From IMG/VR virus record IMGVR_UViG_3300010883_000164, positions 1 to 35,417 of that record: a stretch of 35,417 bases of DNA. The stretch is one strand, 5' to 3'. The stretch is from a virus. Positions 1 through 9,456 of this stretch are shown here, piece by piece (position 1 is the first letter of the stretch; each line of letters begins with the position of its first letter). Under the pieces are notes generated by a model, which did no database searches, had not been told where the DNA came from, and saw only the letters and a program-made list of their open reading frames with translations. A program made the position numbers and the translations under genes.

Positions 1-183
1 ATAGAACTCAACCCAGCCTTCAGGCACAGGGCGGTGTTTCATGTCTGGGTCATGCTCTCGCCAGTAAAGGTAGAAACCTTCGTGCTCATAGCCGAGAAAC
101 TTGTTACAAAAATGTTCAATGATGTTTCTTGCTACTCTAGGCCCGTGTTTGGGCTTGAAGCAATAGCTAGATAAATTTGGCAT
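1..183 (-). CDS. hypothetical protein, 5' part only
   Basis: An open frame starts at an ATG at 183 and stays open through 61 codons to the left edge, so the C-terminus is missing. A strong Shine-Dalgarno sequence (GGAGGA) lies about 8 bases upstream, and a promoter-like element precedes it at 205-232, so this looks like the first gene of its own transcript. The visible part is rich in aromatic residues, His and Pro (motifs YLYWREHD and PVPEGWVEFY). I do not recognise the family. Confidence 0.7.
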   Translation of the reverse strand, partial: MPNLSSYCFKPKHGPRVARNIIEHFCNKFLGYEHEGFYLYWREHDPDMKHRPVPEGWVEFY

Positions 184-204
184 GTCGTCGTCCTCCGTGT
201 ACAA

Positions 205-232
205 ACTGTAGTTACACGTGGGTGGGAGTAAA
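205..232 (-). promoter_or_regulatory. sigma70-like promoter, copy 1
   Basis: On the minus strand TTTACT (227-232) and TACAGT (205-210) are separated by 16 bases. The block from TTTTACTCCC through CGTGT and beyond is nearly the same as the element at 1907-1934, and both sit just after a stop codon and just before a strong ribosome binding site. The repetition is the main argument. The -10 box of this copy is weak. Confidence 0.45.
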
Positions 233-238
233 ATATTA

Positions 239-445
239 TTATACCACCACGAACTCGTAGTCGCACAATATCATCATGCGGCTTCCGCAAAGAATTCTGT
301 AGGCGACACAGTCGCGTCGCGTTGAATCTTCAGGGAAAAAATCGATATGCTCCGCAATCACAACGCCATGGCTACAGTTTCCCAAAGCCAGTTCTTGGGG
401 ATCTAGTATCTTGACTAGCGCTCCTAGCTTGAGCTTTCCAGCCAT
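239..445 (-). CDS. small SH3/KOW-like protein
   Basis: A protein of 68 residues with the pattern seen in its neighbours: LKLGALVKIL near the N-terminus, a GVV turn, then alternating hydrophobic strands ending DYEFVVV. This suggests a small SH3- or KOW-like beta barrel; the fold is inferred from pattern only. The ATG at 445 lies inside the end of the preceding gene (overlap 22 bases). At the position where neighbouring modules have a GTG start this gene has CTC, and it starts four codons earlier at an ATG instead. Function unknown. Confidence 0.65.
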   Translation of the reverse strand: MAGKLKLGALVKILDPQELALGNCSHGVVIAEHIDFFPEDSTRRDCVAYRILCGSRMMILCDYEFVVV

Positions 446-687
446 ATGTACTCATTCGCTATTTCTTCACTGAGGATCGTCTCGATTCGTTCCTTTGTCC
501 GTCCGTCACAGTTATAGATGTCTTCAGGCCAAGCAACATCGACTACTGTGCATATGTCTTCTGAATATTCATCTTTAGTGTTATATGGTTCGCCAGAGAG
601 TACGATACCATATTCTATCTTTTGATCCATGTTAAAATAGCCAATCAAATCGCCAGCTTTCACTTGCCGATCTCTTTTGCCTTTCAC
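424..687 (-). CDS. small SH3/KOW-like protein with duplicated start region
   Basis: A protein of 87 residues from the GTG at 687, or 79 from the in-frame GTG at 663. The second GTG opens VKAGDLIGYF, the N-terminal signature shared with adjacent modules; a GIV turn and a VDVAW strand follow. The two possible starts were created by a 24-base tandem duplication (657-705). The GTG at 687 overlaps the TGA of the upstream gene as GTGA, which suggests coupled initiation. The C-terminus (YIWLESSS) overlaps the next gene. Function unknown. Confidence 0.65.
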   Translation of the reverse strand: MKGKRDRQVKAGDLIGYFNMDQKIEYGIVLSGEPYNTKDEYSEDICTVVDVAWPEDIYNCDGRTKERIETILSEEIANEYIWLESSS

Positions 688-705
688 TTGCCGATCTCTT
701 TTGCC
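657..705. repeat. 24-base perfect tandem duplication
   Basis: Two head-to-tail copies of a 24-base unit (period 24 across 657-705) span the end of the zinc-ribbon gene and the start of the next gene. The period is a multiple of three, so the downstream gene gained eight codons and a second GTG start without a frameshift. Confidence 0.95.
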
Positions 706-884
706 ATGTTGCTACTTGTCACGTACATGTATGCGCCTTTGTTATACGCCGGAGCGGTACAACGCGCCTTGCGTAAAATTTGCCGAGTGGCTTCTTGGTC
801 GCCACACTCAAGGCACGTCTGGTACCCAAGCGAACGCCGCTTAGGATTATAGTCTTCGCCACATTCAACGCACTCAGGATTCAC
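684..884 (-). CDS. small CxxC-CxxC zinc-ribbon protein
   Basis: A protein of 66 residues from the GTG at 884. Two pairs, C5-x2-C8 and C24-x2-C27, in the setting CVECGEDYNP...CLECGD, form a likely zinc ribbon; the rest is a short basic segment and a polar tail. Similar Cys-rich small proteins are common in T4-related phages, with no settled function. The longer open frame to 1025 is not used: the GTG lies 5 bases after a GAGGT ribosome binding site and overlaps the TGA of the preceding gene, the same junction found at the neighbouring modules. Confidence 0.75.
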   Translation of the reverse strand: MNPECVECGEDYNPKRRSLGYQTCLECGDQEATRQILRKARCTAPAYNKGAYMYVTSSNMAKEIGK

Positions 885-1065
885 TTGTAACCTCAATATA
901 TTTCTCGTCCATTGCACCTCCGTAGTGGAAGCTAGCGCTCGGAAGCGGCCAAAGATCCCAGTAAACTGTTCGACCAATGTAATCCTTTGACATCTCTGTC
1001 CTTCCAAGAATAATATAGTAACCAACCTTTGCTGGTAAAACTTGCACTAAATCACCTCGTTTCAC
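874..1065 (-). CDS. small SH3/KOW-like protein
   Basis: A protein of 63 residues beginning VKRGDLVQVL from the GTG at 1065. A beta-rich middle follows (YYIILGR, VYWDLW) and the C-terminus is YIEVTSES. The frame extends upstream to 1170, but the GTG is preferred: it has GGAG upstream and overlaps the TGA of the preceding gene in the same nested pattern as its neighbours. Its own end (GAG GTT ACA AGT GAA) carries the ribosome binding site and GTG of the next gene. Function unknown; a role in nucleic-acid or protein binding is only a guess from the KOW-like N-terminus. Confidence 0.7.
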   Translation of the reverse strand: MKRGDLVQVLPAKVGYYIILGRTEMSKDYIGRTVYWDLWPLPSASFHYGGAMDEKYIEVTSES

Positions 1066-1261
1066 TGATAAGCTCCAAGTGTTCCTCTTCGTGAAAAGAA
1101 AAATCATCGTTCCATTGAACTCGAAAAGACTTCCAGGCTTCGGATCGCGGCATATCCTCGCCACCTTCACCCTGGTCTACCATAGTAATAACGCCGGGAC
1201 CATAGTAAACACCTATTATCTGCCAGATTTCCTTTAGCAGAACAATGTCACCTACTTTCAC
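1052..1261 (-). CDS. small SH3/KOW-like protein
   Basis: A protein of 69 residues starting at a GTG (1261) with VKVGDIVLLKE, then a GVIT turn, an FRVQW strand and the C-terminal motif HLELISETR. GGAGGT lies 5 bases before the start. The TGA of the upstream gene is nested in its fourth and fifth codons (GGT GAC). The pattern resembles small phage and bacterial SH3-like proteins whose first strand reads GDxVxL and whose last strand has VxW. I do not recognise a named family. Confidence 0.7.
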   Translation of the reverse strand: MKVGDIVLLKEIWQIIGVYYGPGVITMVDQGEGGEDMPRSEAWKSFRVQWNDDFSFHEEEHLELISETR

Positions 1262-1424
1262 TTACAACCTCCACATCGTTGGTGTCGAGGTAAACGGTAG
1301 TACCCGCAAAGTTCACGGCGACGGTCGTCGACGCGATCTTTATTACTAAACCGACTTTGTCTTCATATCCCATACCGCGTCGGGTTTTACGGGAAGACAA
1401 CACGACTAAATCACCGGGCTTCAC
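1248..1424 (-). CDS. small SH3/KOW-like protein, 58 residues
   Basis: This short gene is easy to miss. From the GTG at 1424 it reads VKPGDLVVLSSRK, then KVGLVIKI, TTVAVNF and the C-terminus VEVVSESR before TGA at 1248. GAGGT lies 5 bases upstream of the GTG inside the preceding gene. Both ends use the nested junction: the TGA of the upstream gene lies in its GGT GAT codons, and its own 3' end carries GGAGGT and the GTG of the next gene. It fills what would otherwise be the only gap in this array. Function unknown. Confidence 0.72.
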   Translation of the reverse strand: MKPGDLVVLSSRKTRRGMGYEDKVGLVIKIASTTVAVNFAGTTVYLDTNDVEVVSESR

Positions 1425-1629
1425 TGATAACCTCTACCCATCCAGTTTCTATGGCACTCAAATCCATCGGCGCGGGTCGCCTCTGATGTGCAGGCCATAG
1501 AACAAGTTGTGTGCGCGCCCCGGTGTAGGGCACTTCAACCAGAGGACCAACGATAATGCCTATGTCTCTTTGGTCCACGTCTCTTAATAGACTACCAATC
1601 GGTATAGAGTGTGTCTTGCCATTGTTCAT
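1411..1629 (-). CDS. small SH3/KOW-like protein
   Basis: A protein of 72 residues starting at the ATG at 1629 inside the end of the preceding gene. IPIGSLLRD takes the place of the usual xxGDLV, followed by IGIIVGP, QLVLW and the C-terminal motif WVEVISEAR. The codons for EVISEAR carry GAGGT and the GTG start of the next gene. Function unknown. Confidence 0.65.
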   Translation of the reverse strand: MNNGKTHSIPIGSLLRDVDQRDIGIIVGPLVEVPYTGARTQLVLWPAHQRRPAPMDLSAIETGWVEVISEAR

Positions 1630-1822
1630 CGTTCATCGCTTGCAGGTTTAAGCCTGCGTATGTTCCCTGTGCTCCAGAGCTAGCCTCGTCGAGCCACAGT
1701 ACCGTGTATTGATTATCACCCAGCGAACTTGTGACCACACCTAATGTAGACTTCAGTACACCACCGTCAAGTTTCAAATGAACTAGATCACCACTAATTA
1801 TATTATTGCTTTGTTCCAACAC
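1592..1822 (-). CDS. small SH3/KOW-like protein
   Basis: A protein of 76 residues. The GTG at 1822 has GGAGGA about 7 bases upstream. The core reads IISGDLVHLK, LGVVTS and YTVLWLD, matching the modules downstream, so this is probably the first gene of the array. It ends in DTLYTDW rather than the EVISE motif, and the next gene starts at an internal ATG. Function unknown. Confidence 0.68.
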   Translation of the reverse strand: MLEQSNNIISGDLVHLKLDGGVLKSTLGVVTSSLGDNQYTVLWLDEASSGAQGTYAGLNLQAMNDEQWQDTLYTDW

Positions 1823-1860
1823 AGCAGTCCTCCATAAACTTTTGAGTGTCGAACTTCGGA

Positions 1861-1884
1861 TCAGCTTAAGCCTTTGCGCATCAT
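1861..1884 (-). CDS. possible 7-residue leader peptide
   Basis: A strong ribosome binding site (AAGGAGG) and two adjacent ATG codons (1884, 1881) follow the promoter-like element at 1907-1934, but the frame closes after MMRKGLS. It could be a leader peptide upstream of the small-gene array or the remnant of a decayed start. Too short to support on its own. Confidence 0.2.
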   Translation of the reverse strand: MMRKGLS

Positions 1885-1906
1885 AACGCCTCCTTCGTCC
1901 ACATAC

Positions 1907-1934
1907 ATTATAATAACACGGGCGCGGGAGTAAA
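1907..1934 (-). promoter_or_regulatory. sigma70-like promoter, copy 2
   Basis: The minus strand carries TTTACT (1929-1934), a 16-base spacer and a perfect TATAAT (1907-1912). The flanking TTTTACTCCC and CGTGTTA are shared with the element at 205-232. It sits in the gap before the small-gene array and immediately after the stop of the upstream gene, as expected for a promoter driving the array. Confidence 0.6.
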
Positions 1935-1937
1935 AAG

Positions 1938-2396
1938 CTATTTGCGAGAACGAATCTCGTCTACTGCATCAAACGTTTCTTGCAGCAATTGCAGGGCTAT
2001 CTTGGACTCGTCTGTCTGCTCGGACATTTTAGAGAAAGCCTCCAGGGCGTCGCCAAGCTGCTCCATGTTGTCTTTCATGCGGGCTATCACCTCGTCCAAC
2101 ACGGCGTAGGGGTCTTCGTTAGCTTGGGTGCGTAGGAGCAGAAAGTCCTGCGTACTCATAGTGTTCGAACAGGACAGATTGCCATGATGGCTTGACTTTT
2201 TGTCTTCACCTGAATCAACTGACGCAGGCTTCTGTTCTGGAGGCTGCGTGTTGACTTTCTGTGTTTCTTGCTGGGCCATGGGGGCTGGGTTGGACGGTTG
2301 TACCATCCTAGTAGCCAAGCTAGCACCTATAGAATTTATACTCATGTCATTTACACCGTCTTCTTTATCTTTATATCCTGTGAGCGGAAGATACAT
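1938..2396 (-). CDS. hypothetical helical protein
   Basis: A protein of 152 residues from the ATG at 2396, or 135 from the ATG at 2345 (MSINSIGASL); neither start has a good ribosome binding site, so the start is uncertain. The first half is low complexity, rich in Pro, Gln and Ser. The second half (from about residue 80) is acidic and helical with heptad-like spacing (VLDEVIARMKDNMEQL, ALQLLQETFDAVDEI), a probable coiled coil. Function unknown. Confidence 0.6.
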   Translation of the reverse strand: MYLPLTGYKDKEDGVNDMSINSIGASLATRMVQPSNPAPMAQQETQKVNTQPPEQKPASVDSGEDKKSSHHGNLSCSNTMSTQDFLLLRTQANEDPYAVLDEVIARMKDNMEQLGDALEAFSKMSEQTDESKIALQLLQETFDAVDEIRSRK

Positions 2397-2425
2397 GGTA
2401 TAAATAACTAGTGTAAATTACTTAA

Positions 2426-2439
2426 AAAATTATAATTTT
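2426..2439. repeat. 14-base AT palindrome at a stop codon
   Basis: AAAATTATAATTTT is a perfect palindrome that includes the TAA of the 2430-2702 gene and is followed on the minus strand by more T residues. It could act as a weak terminator or be a chance AT-rich sequence. Confidence 0.3.
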
Positions 2440-2702
2440 GTACGTTTAAGACAACGACGGAGAGTAGTAAGCTCTTTATCCACATCGATGCATTTTAACT
2501 CATCGATACGATAAACGTATCGATGAAAGTCTTGCTGCCCTCCACGGAGCGACGAGAGCGCCTGCATTGCTCGTTCATACTGTGTGTCATCGATCCAATC
2601 AACTTCGGCATAAGCCCAACGCTCTATAATATACTTATCGTGTACAACGCCGTATCGTCGGATTCCTTGGTAGTCTTGAAAAACTACGTCATTAATGTTC
2701 AT
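2430..2702 (-). CDS. small SH3/KOW-like protein with basic tail
   Basis: A protein of 90 residues. The first half follows the pattern of the array downstream: INDVVFQDYQG, YGVVHDK, AYAEVDWID. After about residue 65 it turns highly charged and ends in a basic tail (TLRRCLKRTKL). The ATG at 2702 has AGGTAA upstream. It may be an outlying member of the same small-barrel group with an added helical tail. Function unknown. Confidence 0.62.
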   Translation of the reverse strand: MNINDVVFQDYQGIRRYGVVHDKYIIERWAYAEVDWIDDTQYERAMQALSSLRGGQQDFHRYVYRIDELKCIDVDKELTTLRRCLKRTKL

Positions 2703-2709
2703 GGCTTAC

Positions 2710-3243
2710 CTACTCTAGTGTAAAACTTCTGACTTCAATCTTCTCGAACCAGATCACAACCCCCATGCCACCCGTCTTGTAATACGCGCCCTTGTACGGC
2801 GGTGCGTCTGCGGGCAAAATACTTTCCGGGGGCGCGCCATACAAAGATTTGCGCGGGCGGTTTGCTAGGCTACGTAAAATACGATCAACGTCAGGTGCCA
2901 TCCCTTGCTGCGGGATCGACTTTTGAATCAAGCCCAGAGGGTCAGTGGCGAGGTCATATATTTGTTCCGCTGGAACTTGCGTGGAAAACAAGCTAGCACC
3001 TTGTTTCACAATATTTTCTGCGTGATCCAGGTCTGTATAAAAAAACACTCTAGGCATATCCGAGACGTTGTAGTCGTTGCGACTATATTGTCCTCGCTTA
3101 GACAAGAAGTATTCTGGATCTAAATGTAGGGAATCGTCGCCGGTTTTTGAATAGTGGTACAAACGTACTCGGCCACCGATGCTATACTCGCTTATGGACT
3201 CTTTGAGGAGAAAATCTCTCCATTTTTCGTAAAAGTGTTTCAT
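2710..3243 (-). CDS. conserved phage protein, possibly ADP-ribosyltransferase-like
   Basis: A protein of 177 residues from the ATG at 3243; an earlier GTG at 3276 is also possible, and neither has a clear ribosome binding site. Visible motifs in order are FYEKWRDFLLKE (3-15), RLYHYSK (27-33), PRVFFYTDLDHAENIVKQG (64-82), AEQIYDLATDPLG (92-104) and YYKTGGMGVVIWFEKIEV (154-171). A YHxS strand, a 'FYT...A' segment and a closing GxxVxWFxxI strand recall ADP-ribosyltransferase-fold proteins, but the catalytic Glu is not obvious. The N-terminus resembles those of T4-type head proteins. Recognition is tentative. Confidence 0.65.
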   Translation of the reverse strand: MKHFYEKWRDFLLKESISEYSIGGRVRLYHYSKTGDDSLHLDPEYFLSKRGQYSRNDYNVSDMPRVFFYTDLDHAENIVKQGASLFSTQVPAEQIYDLATDPLGLIQKSIPQQGMAPDVDRILRSLANRPRKSLYGAPPESILPADAPPYKGAYYKTGGMGVVIWFEKIEVRSFTLE

Positions 3244-3260
3244 GTACTTAAATAGTTTCG

Positions 3261-3497
3261 CTATTTCTTCATGCACTGTAAATAATACTTTCTATCGTGC
3301 ACCGCATATGAAGATTTTAAGTAGGCCATGGCTTCTGCAACTGTTACTTCGTAGTCCTGAGCCTTCATGGCCTCGACGATGTCCTTGGCAATTGTCTTGT
3401 CGGGCTGGTAATTGTCTTTCTGGGATTGAAGGAGCTTCTTGTACCCCTTGACCCGGTCTTCTTTGTGCGAAGAAAAAATAAGTTTGTTACCTTTCAT
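3261..3497 (-). CDS. hypothetical protein
   Basis: A basic, helical protein of 78 residues (RVKGYKKLLQSQKDN; VAEAMAYLKSSYAVHDRKYY). The ATG at 3497 lies about 10 bases after AGGAG. It is the first gene after the tRNA-Arg and the promoter-like element at 3542-3569, and it runs into the next gene. I do not recognise the family. Confidence 0.65.
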   Translation of the reverse strand: MKGNKLIFSSHKEDRVKGYKKLLQSQKDNYQPDKTIAKDIVEAMKAQDYEVTVAEAMAYLKSSYAVHDRKYYLQCMKK

Positions 3498-3541
3498 GCT
3501 CTGTTCTCTCCTTTTATTAGACTACCAACTTTCATATACAC

Positions 3542-3569
3542 ATGATAATCACCAGTATATAAAAGTAAA
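3542..3569 (-). promoter_or_regulatory. sigma70-like promoter, copy 3
   Basis: The minus strand carries TTTACT (3564-3569), 16 bases and TATCAT (3542-3547): the same -35 box and spacing as the elements at 205-232 and 1907-1934, without the CCC block. It lies between the 3' end of tRNA-Arg and the gene at 3261-3497. Confidence 0.35.
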
Positions 3570-3646
3570 TGGTACGCCCGACTGGGTTCGAACCAGTGAC
3601 CTACGGCTTAGAAGGCCGTTGCTCTATCCAACTGAGCTACGGGCGC
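3570..3646 (-). tRNA. tRNA-Arg (anticodon UCU)
   Basis: A complete cloverleaf of 77 bases including an encoded CCA (3570-3572). The acceptor stem GCGCCCG pairs with CGGGCGT (one G-U pair). The D arm, the anticodon loop CTTCTAA giving UCU (reads AGA, and AGG by wobble), and the T loop TTCGAAC are all normal. The phage may use it to read AGA codons that are scarce in the host; that role is inferred. Confidence 0.95.
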
Positions 3647-3652
3647 AGATCC

Positions 3653-3760
3653 TTAATACATCATCATGTACAGTGCAAAAAATACACCGCCAGTTAGTGA
3701 GGCGATCATAACCCTCTTAAAGATCTCATCGCCGCTATGCAGCCTTGCAAACTCGTTCAT
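3653..3760 (-). CDS. 35-residue single-pass membrane microprotein
   Basis: A strong GGAGGA lies 5 bases before the ATG at 3760. The product starts MNEFARLHSGDEIFKRV (polar, 17 residues) and ends in a hydrophobic stretch, IASLTGGVFFALYMMMY, typical of one short membrane helix. It overlaps the end of uvsE by 26 bases and ends just upstream of tRNA-Arg. The good ribosome binding site and the amphipathic design argue that it is translated. Function unknown; a host-membrane or lysis accessory role would be a guess. Confidence 0.6.
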   Translation of the reverse strand: MNEFARLHSGDEIFKRVMIASLTGGVFFALYMMMY

Positions 3761-4682
3761 GCTGTTCCTCCATTAGTTGTCGCATCTTAAAAAGCCCAAG
3801 TTCCTTGTGCTTGCACTCCAACATAACATCGAGGTCTAGGTTGTAAAGATCAATCGGTGTCCAGTACGAATCAGAGTGCGCGTTGTCTCGAATCTTGGGA
3901 TCGTTGTGCTCAATCGATCTGGACTGGGAGTAGTGTACAACCGGACGTACATTATCCCACGTCATGCAGGCAGTCAACAGAGCTTCCTCTTCATCTTGCC
4001 CACCAGTACAAAACTTGTGGTGGTGGTAGTCAAAAACAATTGGGATGCCGATGCGGCTGTAGACCTCATCGTACAACTCCTTGGTTGAATACAGGCTAGC
4101 CTTGTCATCGTTCTCGACCGTCAGCCTAGAGCGCACAGACTCAGAGAGTCGCTCAAAGTTACGACAAAAATTACCGATGGCCATCTGCTTGTCGTTGTAG
4201 TGCGCGCCGACATGAATATTAATCTTAGCATACGGCGATCGTGGAAGGCCCATGAGGTCAAAAATCCTACCATGATTTTCCAAGTCAGTGATCGTGTTGG
4301 TCACTACATGTGGCCTGGGACTAGTCAACTTGTTGTACGGGCCAGGATGAGTAGTAATGCGCTGGCCATAGACTTGTGCAAGTGCGCCGGCGCGCTTGAG
4401 AGACGCATCGATAGCTTTGAAATCGGGCAACTCTTCTATCTCGTACTCGCTGTGCCATGGGAGAATGTCAGAAGACATACGATAAAACTTAATGTCGTTA
4501 TCGTGGTTCCACTGAATGATCCTCTCAAGGTCTAAACAGTTTTGAATTGCTAGCTCAGAAGCGTAGGGAAGACCCTTCGCTTTGAAAGTCCTGCGAATCA
4601 TCGATCGATTCGTGGTGACCCTCTTGGCTTTGGGCTGATCGCTCAGCCCCATGTTAATACACGCATACCCTAAATTATACAT
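3735..4682 (-). CDS. uvsE: UV damage endonuclease (UvsE/UVDE family)
   Basis: A protein of 315 residues that nicks DNA 5' to UV photoproducts to start repair. It is a TIM-barrel enzyme with metal-binding His, Glu and Asp residues. Visible family features are the N-terminal strand LGYACIN, the RMSSDILPW block, THPGPY, HVGAHYNDK, VENDD (a metal-binding Glu) and FDYHHH. Length is close to that of bacterial UVDE. The start is the ATG at 4682, with GAGGT 5 bases upstream; the frame continues to 4724, but those residues are translated tRNA-Leu sequence and are not real. Its 3' end overlaps the microprotein at 3653-3760. It would protect or repair phage DNA in sunlit water. Confidence 0.93.
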   Translation of the reverse strand: MYNLGYACINMGLSDQPKAKRVTTNRSMIRRTFKAKGLPYASELAIQNCLDLERIIQWNHDNDIKFYRMSSDILPWHSEYEIEELPDFKAIDASLKRAGALAQVYGQRITTHPGPYNKLTSPRPHVVTNTITDLENHGRIFDLMGLPRSPYAKINIHVGAHYNDKQMAIGNFCRNFERLSESVRSRLTVENDDKASLYSTKELYDEVYSRIGIPIVFDYHHHKFCTGGQDEEEALLTACMTWDNVRPVVHYSQSRSIEHNDPKIRDNAHSDSYWTPIDLYNLDLDVMLECKHKELGLFKMRQLMEEQHERVCKAA

Positions 4683-4694
4683 AAATACCTCGTT

Positions 4695-4782
4695 TGGTAG
4701 CCCCGGCGGGACTCGAACCCGCAAGCCCGTGCTGGGCGACAGATTTTAAGTCTGTTGTGTATGCCAATTCCACCACAGGGCC
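4695..4782 (-). tRNA. tRNA-Leu (anticodon UAA)
   Basis: A complete 88-base class II tRNA with an encoded CCA at 4695-4697. The acceptor arm GGCCCTG pairs with CGGGGCT (two G-U pairs), the anticodon loop CTTAAAA gives UAA, an extended variable arm follows, and the T arm carries TTCGAGT. It lies between the microprotein at 4794-4847 and uvsE and is probably processed from their common transcript. Confidence 0.94.
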
Positions 4783-4793
4783 ATGGTTGTTTG

Positions 4794-4847
4794 TTACTCT
4801 ACAAACATAGCAACTAAAGAAAGCCAGTAAACGCCAACTGGCACCAT
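4794..4847 (-). CDS. possible 17-residue hydrophobic peptide
   Basis: An ATG at 4847 opens MVPVGVYWLSLVAMFVE before TAA. The sequence is almost wholly hydrophobic and could span the membrane. It lies directly after the 56-residue gene and before tRNA-Leu, with an AGG close to the start. It is included because of its membrane-like composition and position; conservation in related phages would be needed to accept it. Confidence 0.3.
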   Translation of the reverse strand: MVPVGVYWLSLVAMFVE

Positions 4848-4850
4848 GGC

Positions 4851-5021
4851 CTACTCTTCCAGCGCCAGCAGTTTTTGCAGCTTGCCCCTCACATTGTCAA
4901 TAATTTTAAGTTTTGAGTCAGCCGTTCCTGCGCCATAATCAATAGCTTGGCGAAGCAAGTACAGCTCTTTTAAAACGTCATTAATGACCGCGTCCTTTTT
5001 GTCGGGCACGTAAACACGCAT
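4851..5021 (-). CDS. 56-residue hypothetical helical protein
   Basis: The ATG at 5021 has AGGA 7 bases upstream. The product begins MRVYVPDKKDAVIND and continues as one or two amphipathic helices (VLKELYLLRQAIDY; DNVRGKLQKLLALEE), consistent with a small helical hairpin. It lies in the def-to-tRNA microprotein run. Function unknown. Confidence 0.6.
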   Translation of the reverse strand: MRVYVPDKKDAVINDVLKELYLLRQAIDYGAGTADSKLKIIDNVRGKLQKLLALEE

Positions 5022-7594: not shown

Positions 7595-7874
7595 CTACTG
7601 CCTCCTCATTGTCCTCTTGAATTGCCTCTAGCGCAGACGGATCTAAAGCAGAGGAGTATCCTGCCACGATGTTGTACGTTTCATCTAGCATTTGATCTAG
7701 GTCTGACAGTTCGTATCTGACGTCGGAGATTTGTGTTAAGAGATCTTCTGTCGAAAAGTAGTTGAATTTCTCCTTTGACATCTGCGACAATTTAGATTTG
7801 GCGTCCAGCAACCGCTGCACAATTATACCGGGGATTTCCTCGACGTCGTGGGAGGCAGAAAGTTTAACTCTCAT
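7575..7874 (-). CDS. conserved phage helical protein
   Basis: A protein of 99 residues beginning MRVKLSASHDVEEIPGII, followed by two long helices with coiled-coil spacing (QRLLDAKSKLSQMSK; LLTQISDVRYELSDLDQMLDE) and a Glu-rich acidic tail. The N-terminal pattern is familiar from small phage proteins of unknown role. The ribosome binding site AAGGAG and the ATG lie inside the last codons of groEL, so translation is coupled to the chaperonin. Confidence 0.66.
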   Translation of the reverse strand: MRVKLSASHDVEEIPGIIVQRLLDAKSKLSQMSKEKFNYFSTEDLLTQISDVRYELSDLDQMLDETYNIVAGYSSALDPSALEAIQEDNEEAVDEEKEI

Positions 7875-9456
7875 CTTTGATCTCCTTAATGATACAGGTC
7901 GCTGTGGTCAGCAGGGTAGTAACCACAGAAACAGCGTTTCTGAGCGCCGTTGCCGTAACTTTGGCCGGGTCAATGATGCCGGCCTCGAACATGTCGACGA
8001 CCTTTTCCCGCAGGAAGTCGTAACCCTGATTACTTGTTTTTTTTCTTTTAGCCGCCTTGCGTATCGCATCGACAATTAGATCTCCGCTGACTGCGCAGTT
8101 CTTCGCTATCTGACGTGTGGGTGACTCAAGAGCGGTCAACAGAATCTGCTTGCCGAACTCTTCCGTGGGCGTGTCAACGTTGACCTTGACATTGCCGCAA
8201 TGCAACAGTGCCGCGCCTCCGCCGGGAACAATTCCGCTTTGCTGTGCAGAGCGTACGGCTTCTAACGCGTCCTCGATGCGATGCTTCTTCTCCACCATTT
8301 CAATCTCGCTAGCTGCGCCGACCTCGATGATGGCAACGCCGCTCTGAAGGCGTGTGACTCGGTGTTGCAACCGCTTGCACTCGTTAAAATCTTCTGTTTG
8401 CTTTATCTCGGATTTAAGAGCCTCTATCCTGTTTTCAATCTGTTCCCAATCTCCGGCGCCATCAACGACTGTTGTAAAACTTTTTTCAATCTCAATCATT
8501 TTTGCTTGGCCAAGGTCGGAGAGCTTTACGTCTTCTAACGCGACGTCGCCGCTTTTTGTGATGTAAGTGGCTCCGGTGGCCAGAGCAAGGTCTGATAATA
8601 TTTCTCTTCTTTCTTTCCCGAAACGCGGTGCTATACATGCAGCTACCTTCATGGTGCCACGAACAGTATTCATTATCAAAGCAGCGAGCGCTTGTCCCTC
8701 GACCGCGTCGGCGACGATAATAAATGGTCTGTCCTCTCTTGCTACCTGCTCTAGTATCGGCAGGATCTGCGGAACTTGATCGAGCCTTTCGTCGGTTACC
8801 AAGAGTAAAGGGTCCTTGTATTCCACTGTGTTCTTCCTTTCGCTAGTGACAAAAGCTTGCGCAGCGTAGCCGGCATCGAACCTGAAGCCTTCGACTAGGT
8901 TCAGCTTTGTGTCTTCTGTCTTCCCCGCGCGGACCGTCACCGCGCCTTCGTCTCCTGCCTGGTCGGTAGCTGTTGCAATTAGCTCACCAATTCCGATGTC
9001 GTTATTCGCAGAAATGGCTGCGATATTCTTAATTTCATCAAACGTTTTTACAGGGCGCGCCATCTCCTCTAGATTGCCTAGCACAGCAGCTAGCGTCTTA
9101 TCCATCCCTCTTTTGAGTTCTAAGGGGTCGTGCCCTGCGCGCACATATTTTTGAGCTTCGTTGAAGATTGCCCGGGCTAGCACTGTAGACGTGGTCGTAC
9201 CGTCGCCGACGGTGTTGTTGGTGTTCTCGGCAACCTCCTTCAGCACAGAAGCTGCAGCATCCTCAAACGGATCTGCTGTTTCGAAAAACTTTGCGACTGT
9301 AACACCGTCCTTGGTGATCACCGGCCTGCCTCCTGCACGGAGCATGACGTTTCGGCCACGTGGTCCAAGCGTCACAGCAACGCAATCTGCTAATTTGTTT
9401 ACTCCAGACGACAGCTTCTCTTGTAGCTGCTCGTCAGAAAGACATAACTTACTCAT
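7864..9456 (-). CDS. groEL: GroEL-type chaperonin
   Basis: A full-length group I chaperonin subunit (530 residues; E. coli has 548). ATPase residues are kept: TLGPRGRN (29-36), KDG (49-51), GDGTTTS (84-90) and IEDALEAV before VPGGGAAL near the second nucleotide-binding block. The apical and intermediate domains are complete. The C-terminal GGM tail of host GroEL is missing; the protein ends CIIKEIKDES. It probably folds phage capsid or other virion proteins together with the phage GroES encoded at 23949-24227. It has its own promoter-like element at 9474-9501 and a good ribosome binding site (AGAGGTG). Confidence 0.97.
   Translation of the reverse strand: MSKLCLSDEQLQEKLSSGVNKLADCVAVTLGPRGRNVMLRAGGRPVITKDGVTVAKFFETADPFEDAAASVLKEVAENTNNTVGDGTTTSTVLARAIFNEAQKYVRAGHDPLELKRGMDKTLAAVLGNLEEMARPVKTFDEIKNIAAISANNDIGIGELIATATDQAGDEGAVTVRAGKTEDTKLNLVEGFRFDAGYAAQAFVTSERKNTVEYKDPLLLVTDERLDQVPQILPILEQVAREDRPFIIVADAVEGQALAALIMNTVRGTMKVAACIAPRFGKERREILSDLALATGATYITKSGDVALEDVKLSDLGQAKMIEIEKSFTTVVDGAGDWEQIENRIEALKSEIKQTEDFNECKRLQHRVTRLQSGVAIIEVGAASEIEMVEKKHRIEDALEAVRSAQQSGIVPGGGAALLHCGNVKVNVDTPTEEFGKQILLTALESPTRQIAKNCAVSGDLIVDAIRKAAKRKKTSNQGYDFLREKVVDMFEAGIIDPAKVTATALRNAVSVVTTLLTTATCIIKEIKDES

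Follow-up and report, generated by a model that had tools for sequence, protein, structure and literature searches.

A repeated 14-nt coding overlap joins the mini-genes of a viral array and probably serves as a seam for their exchange

A mini-gene array on the minus strand of the window

The window analysed here, a stretch of 35,417 nucleotides of the IMG/VR virus record IMGVR_UViG_3300010883_000164, carries eight mini-genes, P1 to P8, on its minus strand between positions 239 and 1822. The array opens with P1 (1592..1822, 76 aa, GTG start, ...SGDLVHLK...) and proceeds with P2 (1411..1629, 72 aa), P3 (1248..1424, 58 aa), P4 (1052..1261, 69 aa) and P5 (874..1065, 63 aa, VKRGDLVQVLPAKVGYYII...), the C-termini of the latter four reading EVISEAR, EVVSESR, ELISETR and EVTSES, respectively, each directly before the stop codon. 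Then come P6 (684..884), which encodes a zinc-ribbon protein (phrog_4593, E 1.1e-11) and is not an SH3 unit, P7 (424..687, VKAGDLIGYF...; 87 aa from the GTG at 687, about 79 aa from the GTG at 663) and P8 (239..445, 68 aa, MAGKLKLGALVKI...). A non-array gene, MYLPLTGY... (1938..2396, minus strand), flanks the array.

An earlier note on this DNA had proposed that the end of one mini-gene is at the same time the start of the next, which was borne out at the GTG codons of positions 1424, 1261 and 1065: these are preceded by GAGGT, GAGGT and GGAGCT, respectively, with a 5-nt spacer, and open the peptide V-K-P/V/R-G-D. At the three junctions, the upstream TGA is indeed nested in the GGT-GA(T/C) codons (pattern GTG AAR NNN GGT GA), so that each of them is a 14-nt overlap, located at 1411-1424 between P2 and P3 (cassette junction 1405..1434, minus strand, GAGGTTATCAGTGAAGCCCGGTGATTTAGT), at 1248-1261 between P3 and P4 (1242..1271, minus strand, GAGGTTGTAAGTGAAAGTAGGTGACATTGT) and at 1052-1065 between P4 and P5 (1046..1075, minus strand, GAGCTTATCAGTGAAACGAGGTGATTTAGT). 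Searching the window for the pattern GAGGTNNNNAGTGAAANNNGGTGA with at most three mismatches returned exactly these three sites, against 0.08 expected by chance, and none of 100 shuffles contained three sites. The variant junction described at 884, into the zinc-ribbon gene, was also recovered, as a shortened junction (874..894, minus strand, GAGGTTACAAGTGAATCCTGA) with an 11-nt overlap (874-884) and an upstream tail ...SES. The claim that the repeated junction joins the array from 424 to 1629 nevertheless stands only for these links, three complete and one shortened, whereas the others are overlaps of different kinds: 38 nt between P1 and P2 (1592-1629), 4 nt between P6 and P7, and 22 nt between P7 and P8. 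The P6/P7 link is altered by a perfect 24-bp tandem duplication (657..704, minus strand), which spans the P6 stop and the P7 start and provides two alternative GTG starts (687 and 663). The 38-nt P1/P2 overlap is also present in L087, the closest relative of the window, indicating that some non-cassette overlaps are conserved as well.

Elsewhere, the window encodes a DnaE-type polymerase, a UvsX-like recombinase, a DnaB-like helicase, a ribonucleotide reductase and a GroEL-type chaperonin (7864-9456, minus strand; phrog_5725, E 1.3e-140). From its sequence, we take the reading frame at 3735-4724 (minus strand) to be a UvdE-like endonuclease; its longest TTG start overlaps a tRNA-Leu gene (4695-4782, minus strand). 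A tRNA-Arg lies at 3570-3646, and nothing beyond two tRNAs was returned by Rfam for positions 1-5000.

The SH3/KOW barrels suggested in the earlier note are supported by AlphaFold2 for both unit families tested, P4 being predicted as a five-stranded SH3-like barrel (pLDDT 89.2) and P3 as an SH3-like barrel (pLDDT 83.1). The best VIA-align matches of P3 are Ssl0352/NdhS (Z 8.9-8.0), the Spt5 KOW domain (Z 8.5) and NusG (Z 7.5), and the shapes nearest to P3 and P4 are the KOW domains of NusG/Spt5, NdhS/Ssl0352 and PsaE, with Tudor domains also matched; most of these Z scores are middling and the SH3-like barrel is a fold encountered very often, so that the matches give the fold class only. No significant family match of the SH3 units was obtained in Pfam or PHROG. 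In an isolate phage collection, tblastn gave one weak match for P4 (E 8) and none for 13 concatenated units; a match of 19 nt to Salmonella phage Det7 and related phages runs antisense to an annotated gene, probably reflects chance, and was discarded.

Spread and composition of the seam

Five viral contigs with long arrays of the same design were first detected by protein homology to P4, and a scan with a junction pattern of 20 specified bases located the junction elsewhere among viral contigs, in at least 120 stretches. Across the comparison set (135 loci, 1.27 Mb), overlaps of exactly 14 nt (n=713) greatly outnumber those of 13 nt (n=24), 16 nt (n=21) and 17 nt (n=56), frequencies that are inflated by the fact that most loci were picked by the junction pattern; in the homology-selected loci alone, the overlap is still found in 68 of 102 units. 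A looser junction pattern is present in 30 of 31 whole contigs, on one strand only in each, while a reversed-pattern control gave zero occurrences in whole contigs. Most units start with K-V-G-D-L-V, and, judging from the predicted folds, the cargo of the arrays would mainly be small SH3/KOW-like barrels, along with hitch-hikers such as zinc ribbons and MazG-like, Smr-like and GIY-YIG proteins.

The 135 loci contain 701 distinct 14-nt overlaps, and the consensus of the seam is TnGAGGTnnTnA[G/A]TGAAAGTCGGTGATnTnGT. Over 32 nt (-12 to +19), it carries 42.9 bits of information, whereas the ordinary 4-nt overlaps between other genes of these loci reach 10.1 bits. Within about 32 nt, the seam encodes the last residues and the stop of the upstream gene (A), a Shine-Dalgarno-like GAGGT, and the GTG or ATG start and first seven codons of the downstream gene (B). 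Besides, both other frames are stopped (by NTGA and GGTGA) at 805 of 1021 K-x-G-D starts, so that such a start closes out-of-frame upstream sequence within 14 nt; where both frames are stopped, ends using the 14-nt overlap only are found 549 times and ends using the 4-nt overlap only 81 times.

Some seam positions are conserved although they are silent. At +8, where C and A are both silent in the two frames (GTC/GTA for Val in B, CGG/AGG for Arg in A), C:A is 442:82, against an expected C share of 53% from Val codon usage and 33% from Arg codon usage, and in 93 of 114 loci C is the more frequent of the two. In the same line, the glutamate codon of the Shine-Dalgarno is GAG rather than GAA by 530:13, against a background of 44% GAG.

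In several loci, namely L093 (minus strand, 395 and 1507), L125, L023, L109 and L098, some K-x-G-D units do not overlap and are parted by intergenic promoter-like repeats (CTTGACAA ... TATAAT-like), two upstream regions of L093 being identical over 90 nt. These repeats would represent a second type of seam, reminiscent of the PeSL cassettes considered below.

The earlier note had also suggested that the matching C-terminal peptides might be a by-product of the junction, and for the last four residues this proved correct, the tail tracking the downstream overlap and being gained by unrelated families in front of a K-x-G-D gene. Thus, 452 of 592 K-x-G-D units with a 14-nt overlap downstream end in [SN]-E-x-[RGWS], as compared with 8 of 336 units having no downstream overlap or one of only 1-4 nt. 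The endings NESR, DENR, SESR and NETR occur in GIY-YIG, Smr-like and MazG-like genes solely where a 14-nt overlap with a following K-x-G-D gene is present, whereas their homologues with other successors have different C-termini; as some of the upstream genes scored without a K-x-G-D start are SH3 units with a wrongly assigned start, only these named families are relied on. The C-terminal [S/N]-E-x-R is therefore the start of B read in the frame of A and not a protein motif. An alternative would be a functional C-terminal peptide tag that many proteins have acquired, serving in localisation, degradation or the binding of a partner. The occurrence of S-E-x-R on several unrelated proteins agrees with such a tag, as does the depletion of GTT, which gives a tail Trp, at V3 (7/554, or 1%, in overlaps versus 30/174, or 17%, in non-overlaps), suggesting that some tail residues may be disfavoured. 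Yet a tail dictated by the start codon region of the next gene, nearly absent where no overlap follows and replaced by other C-termini in family homologues without a K-x-G-D successor, makes the tag extremely improbable, and it was rejected. When unrelated proteins have a conserved C-terminal peptide in common, it can hence be a by-product at the DNA level, which calls for caution in interpreting such peptides.

The by-product explanation does not extend as well to the preceding [hydrophobic]-[E/K]-[V/L]-[I/V] stretch, which is also common without an overlap: units lacking an overlap end in a hydrophobic-[EKQR]-hydrophobic-hydrophobic motif in 52-57% of cases, whereas 8-13% of interior windows contain it. 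This frequency indicates that the final strand of the SH3 barrel is real and that the Shine-Dalgarno falls within it. The stretch before the tail (L-E-V-I) would accordingly be of mixed nature, holding the Shine-Dalgarno and being in part a genuine SH3 strand, in agreement with the last strand of the predicted barrels.

Exchange of units and its possible explanations

The conservation of junction bases between differing neighbours, which the earlier note had put forward as a check, is observed in both the identity profiles and the position of the breakpoints. A direct case is L087, whose polymerase is 79% identical to that of the window and whose array stands beside a homologue of the flanking gene MYLPLTGY. 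Six of the eight mini-genes (P1, P2, P3, P6, P7 and P8; 41-85% identity, the P1 homologue being 85% identical) are found there in a changed order, P7-P8-(homologue of window 1-204)-P6-P1-P2-P3-other units, instead of P1-P2-P3-P4-P5-P6-P7-P8. At the exit of P3, 25 of 26 seam bases agree between the two, after which the sequences diverge into unrelated neighbours.

More generally, of the 832 homology ends that all-against-all blastn locates within arrays, 709 fall inside a band of 30 nt at the start codon, where 16.7% would be expected for uniform ends (mean per locus pair 86%, 156 pairs), and most homologous segments measure 150-300 nt, about one unit. Among the unit clusters with at least three recorded right-hand neighbours (n=32), right-hand neighbours of differing kinds occur in 30. 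When homologous units with different successors are compared (129 pairs), identity stays at about 0.8 through +19 and drops to background from +20, while homologous units with different predecessors (95 pairs) are at background up to -13 and rise from -12; the unit pairs are not independent, and no p-value is therefore attached to these profiles. At the variable seam positions, identity above that of unrelated pairs extends to about +11 at most in the different-successor set and begins only at about 0 in the different-predecessor set, which places the switch of ancestry inside the 14-nt overlap. Between unrelated clusters, the unit bodies are at random identity (0.26-0.29) and the seam at 0.66-0.90. 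Units have been reordered and replaced among related T4-type viruses, with homology beginning and ending at the seam.

We regard it as likely that the mini-genes of the array are interchangeable, being linked by a seam with several purposes and exchanged through it, the parts played by recombination and coupling being what we infer. The seams would act as short direct repeats for phage recombination, probably with a phage recombinase such as the UvsX-like protein encoded in the window, and whole genes could be exchanged or moved through them with reading frame, Shine-Dalgarno and stop intact, while the 14-nt overlap would couple translation along the mRNA.

The main rival sees in the seam a translational-coupling element only, whose Shine-Dalgarno, start and stop would be held at their optimum by selection; gene order would change by illegitimate recombination, with selection subsequently retaining the intact genes. 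It accounts for the fact that the most conserved positions are the Shine-Dalgarno, the start and the stop, and any gene-level exchange under such selection also predicts breakpoints at gene boundaries. However, joins in random frame should yield mixed overlaps in both frames, with 14-nt and 4-nt ends equally represented; the strong excess of 14-nt ends given above is read instead as frame-preserving exchange by seam homology. This rival likewise leaves aside the conservation of doubly synonymous and otherwise silent positions, as well as that extending to +19, past the usual initiation signals, and we consider it rather unlikely. Alternatively, the array could be a tandem-duplicated family, in which the N-terminal coding sequence and the overlaps would have been inherited from one ancestral duplication and shuffling would be minor. 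The common K-V-G-D-L-V start and the predicted SH3-like barrels of both tested families would fit such an origin, but the bodies of unrelated clusters resemble one another no more than random sequences do while their seams are conserved, unrelated folds occupy the same seams, and nearly all clusters have differing neighbours. In addition, no more than 7 pairs of units from one locus share a cluster, so that little recent duplication is visible, and a tandem-duplicated family appears quite improbable.

Within the exchange of units through the seam, a more ambitious proposal, which we advance tentatively and at somewhat less than an even chance, is that a large clade of uncultured T4-type viruses keeps a dedicated and self-sealing gene-swapping region, where the seam would combine a both-frame terminator, a ribosome-binding site, a start and recombination homology, and would serve to shuffle SH3-type effectors. 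If this gene-swapping reading is true, the recombinase of the phage itself could exchange whole genes between viruses, with frame and expression preserved. As to the cargo, our best guess, to be held loosely, is a fast-changing accessory set of host-interaction or counter-defence adaptors.

Carrier viruses and comparison with known systems

The T4-type capsid protein gp23 (PF07068) is encoded in 25 of the 31 contigs tested, which reach up to 267 kb. The DnaE-type polymerase of the window shares 61-79% identity with that of 22 of 28 array contigs, gp23-bearing ones included, and 40-48% with two more, which suggests that the window, itself a fragment without gp23, probably derives from a T4-type virus of the same array-carrying group. 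Concerning the host, a scan of genome contigs returned six stretches with the junction, two of which (L136 and L140) are binned in one Halobacteriovorax MAG, the contig of L140 being equal in length (101,404) to the viral contig of L044; this is possibly a hint at the host, or else a binning artefact.

No earlier description of a coding-overlap seam was found in the open-licence literature, but several known systems share some of its features. In T4-type phages, PeSL cassettes, consisting of an intergenic promoter and a stem-loop, are transcriptional elements lying between small accessory genes, for which modular shuffling was proposed (Arbiol 2010 and Comeau 2014, as cited in PMC4503421 and PMC3950731). 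The present arrays likewise belong to viruses mostly carrying gp23 and show a repeated element between small genes, whereas the seam consists of 14 nt of overlapping coding sequence, leaves no intergenic space and would act on translation. A repeat scan detected no inverted repeats at the junctions of the window, and attC-like integron cassette borders were rejected on this ground. The SAS/ESAS elements of cluster K mycobacteriophages, in turn, are 13-bp repeats (GGGATAGGAGCCC) that include the Shine-Dalgarno and lie 3-7 bp upstream of the starts of many unrelated small non-structural genes (PMC3203893). The seam resembles them in being tied to start codons; unlike SAS, which stay upstream and have no reported role as a recombination seam, it has a different consensus, runs to +19 (codon 7) and fixes the upstream C-terminus. 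With regard to the cargo, the 58-69 aa units of the two families are predicted to share the barrel of KOW-type SH3 proteins (NusG/Spt5, NdhS/Ssl0352, PsaE), but differ from these in being stand-alone mini-proteins of phage arrays without a significant sequence family match.

Finally, the borders of modules in lambdoid phages may carry short conserved boundary sequences, for which a role in directing homologous recombination and mosaicism has been proposed, although most mosaic borders lack them (as cited in PMC3029335). Phage mosaicism could result either from homologous exchange at short conserved boundaries or from illegitimate joining with subsequent selection, a long-standing question for which the arrays offer a natural case with hundreds of aligned boundaries and measurable breakpoints. 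As in the lambdoid phages, a short conserved seam separates modules that are non-homologous on either side, as seen from the identity profiles and the breakpoint band; unlike the lambdoid boundaries, this seam belongs to the coding sequence of the two genes that it joins and is repeated at most of the gene borders in an array.
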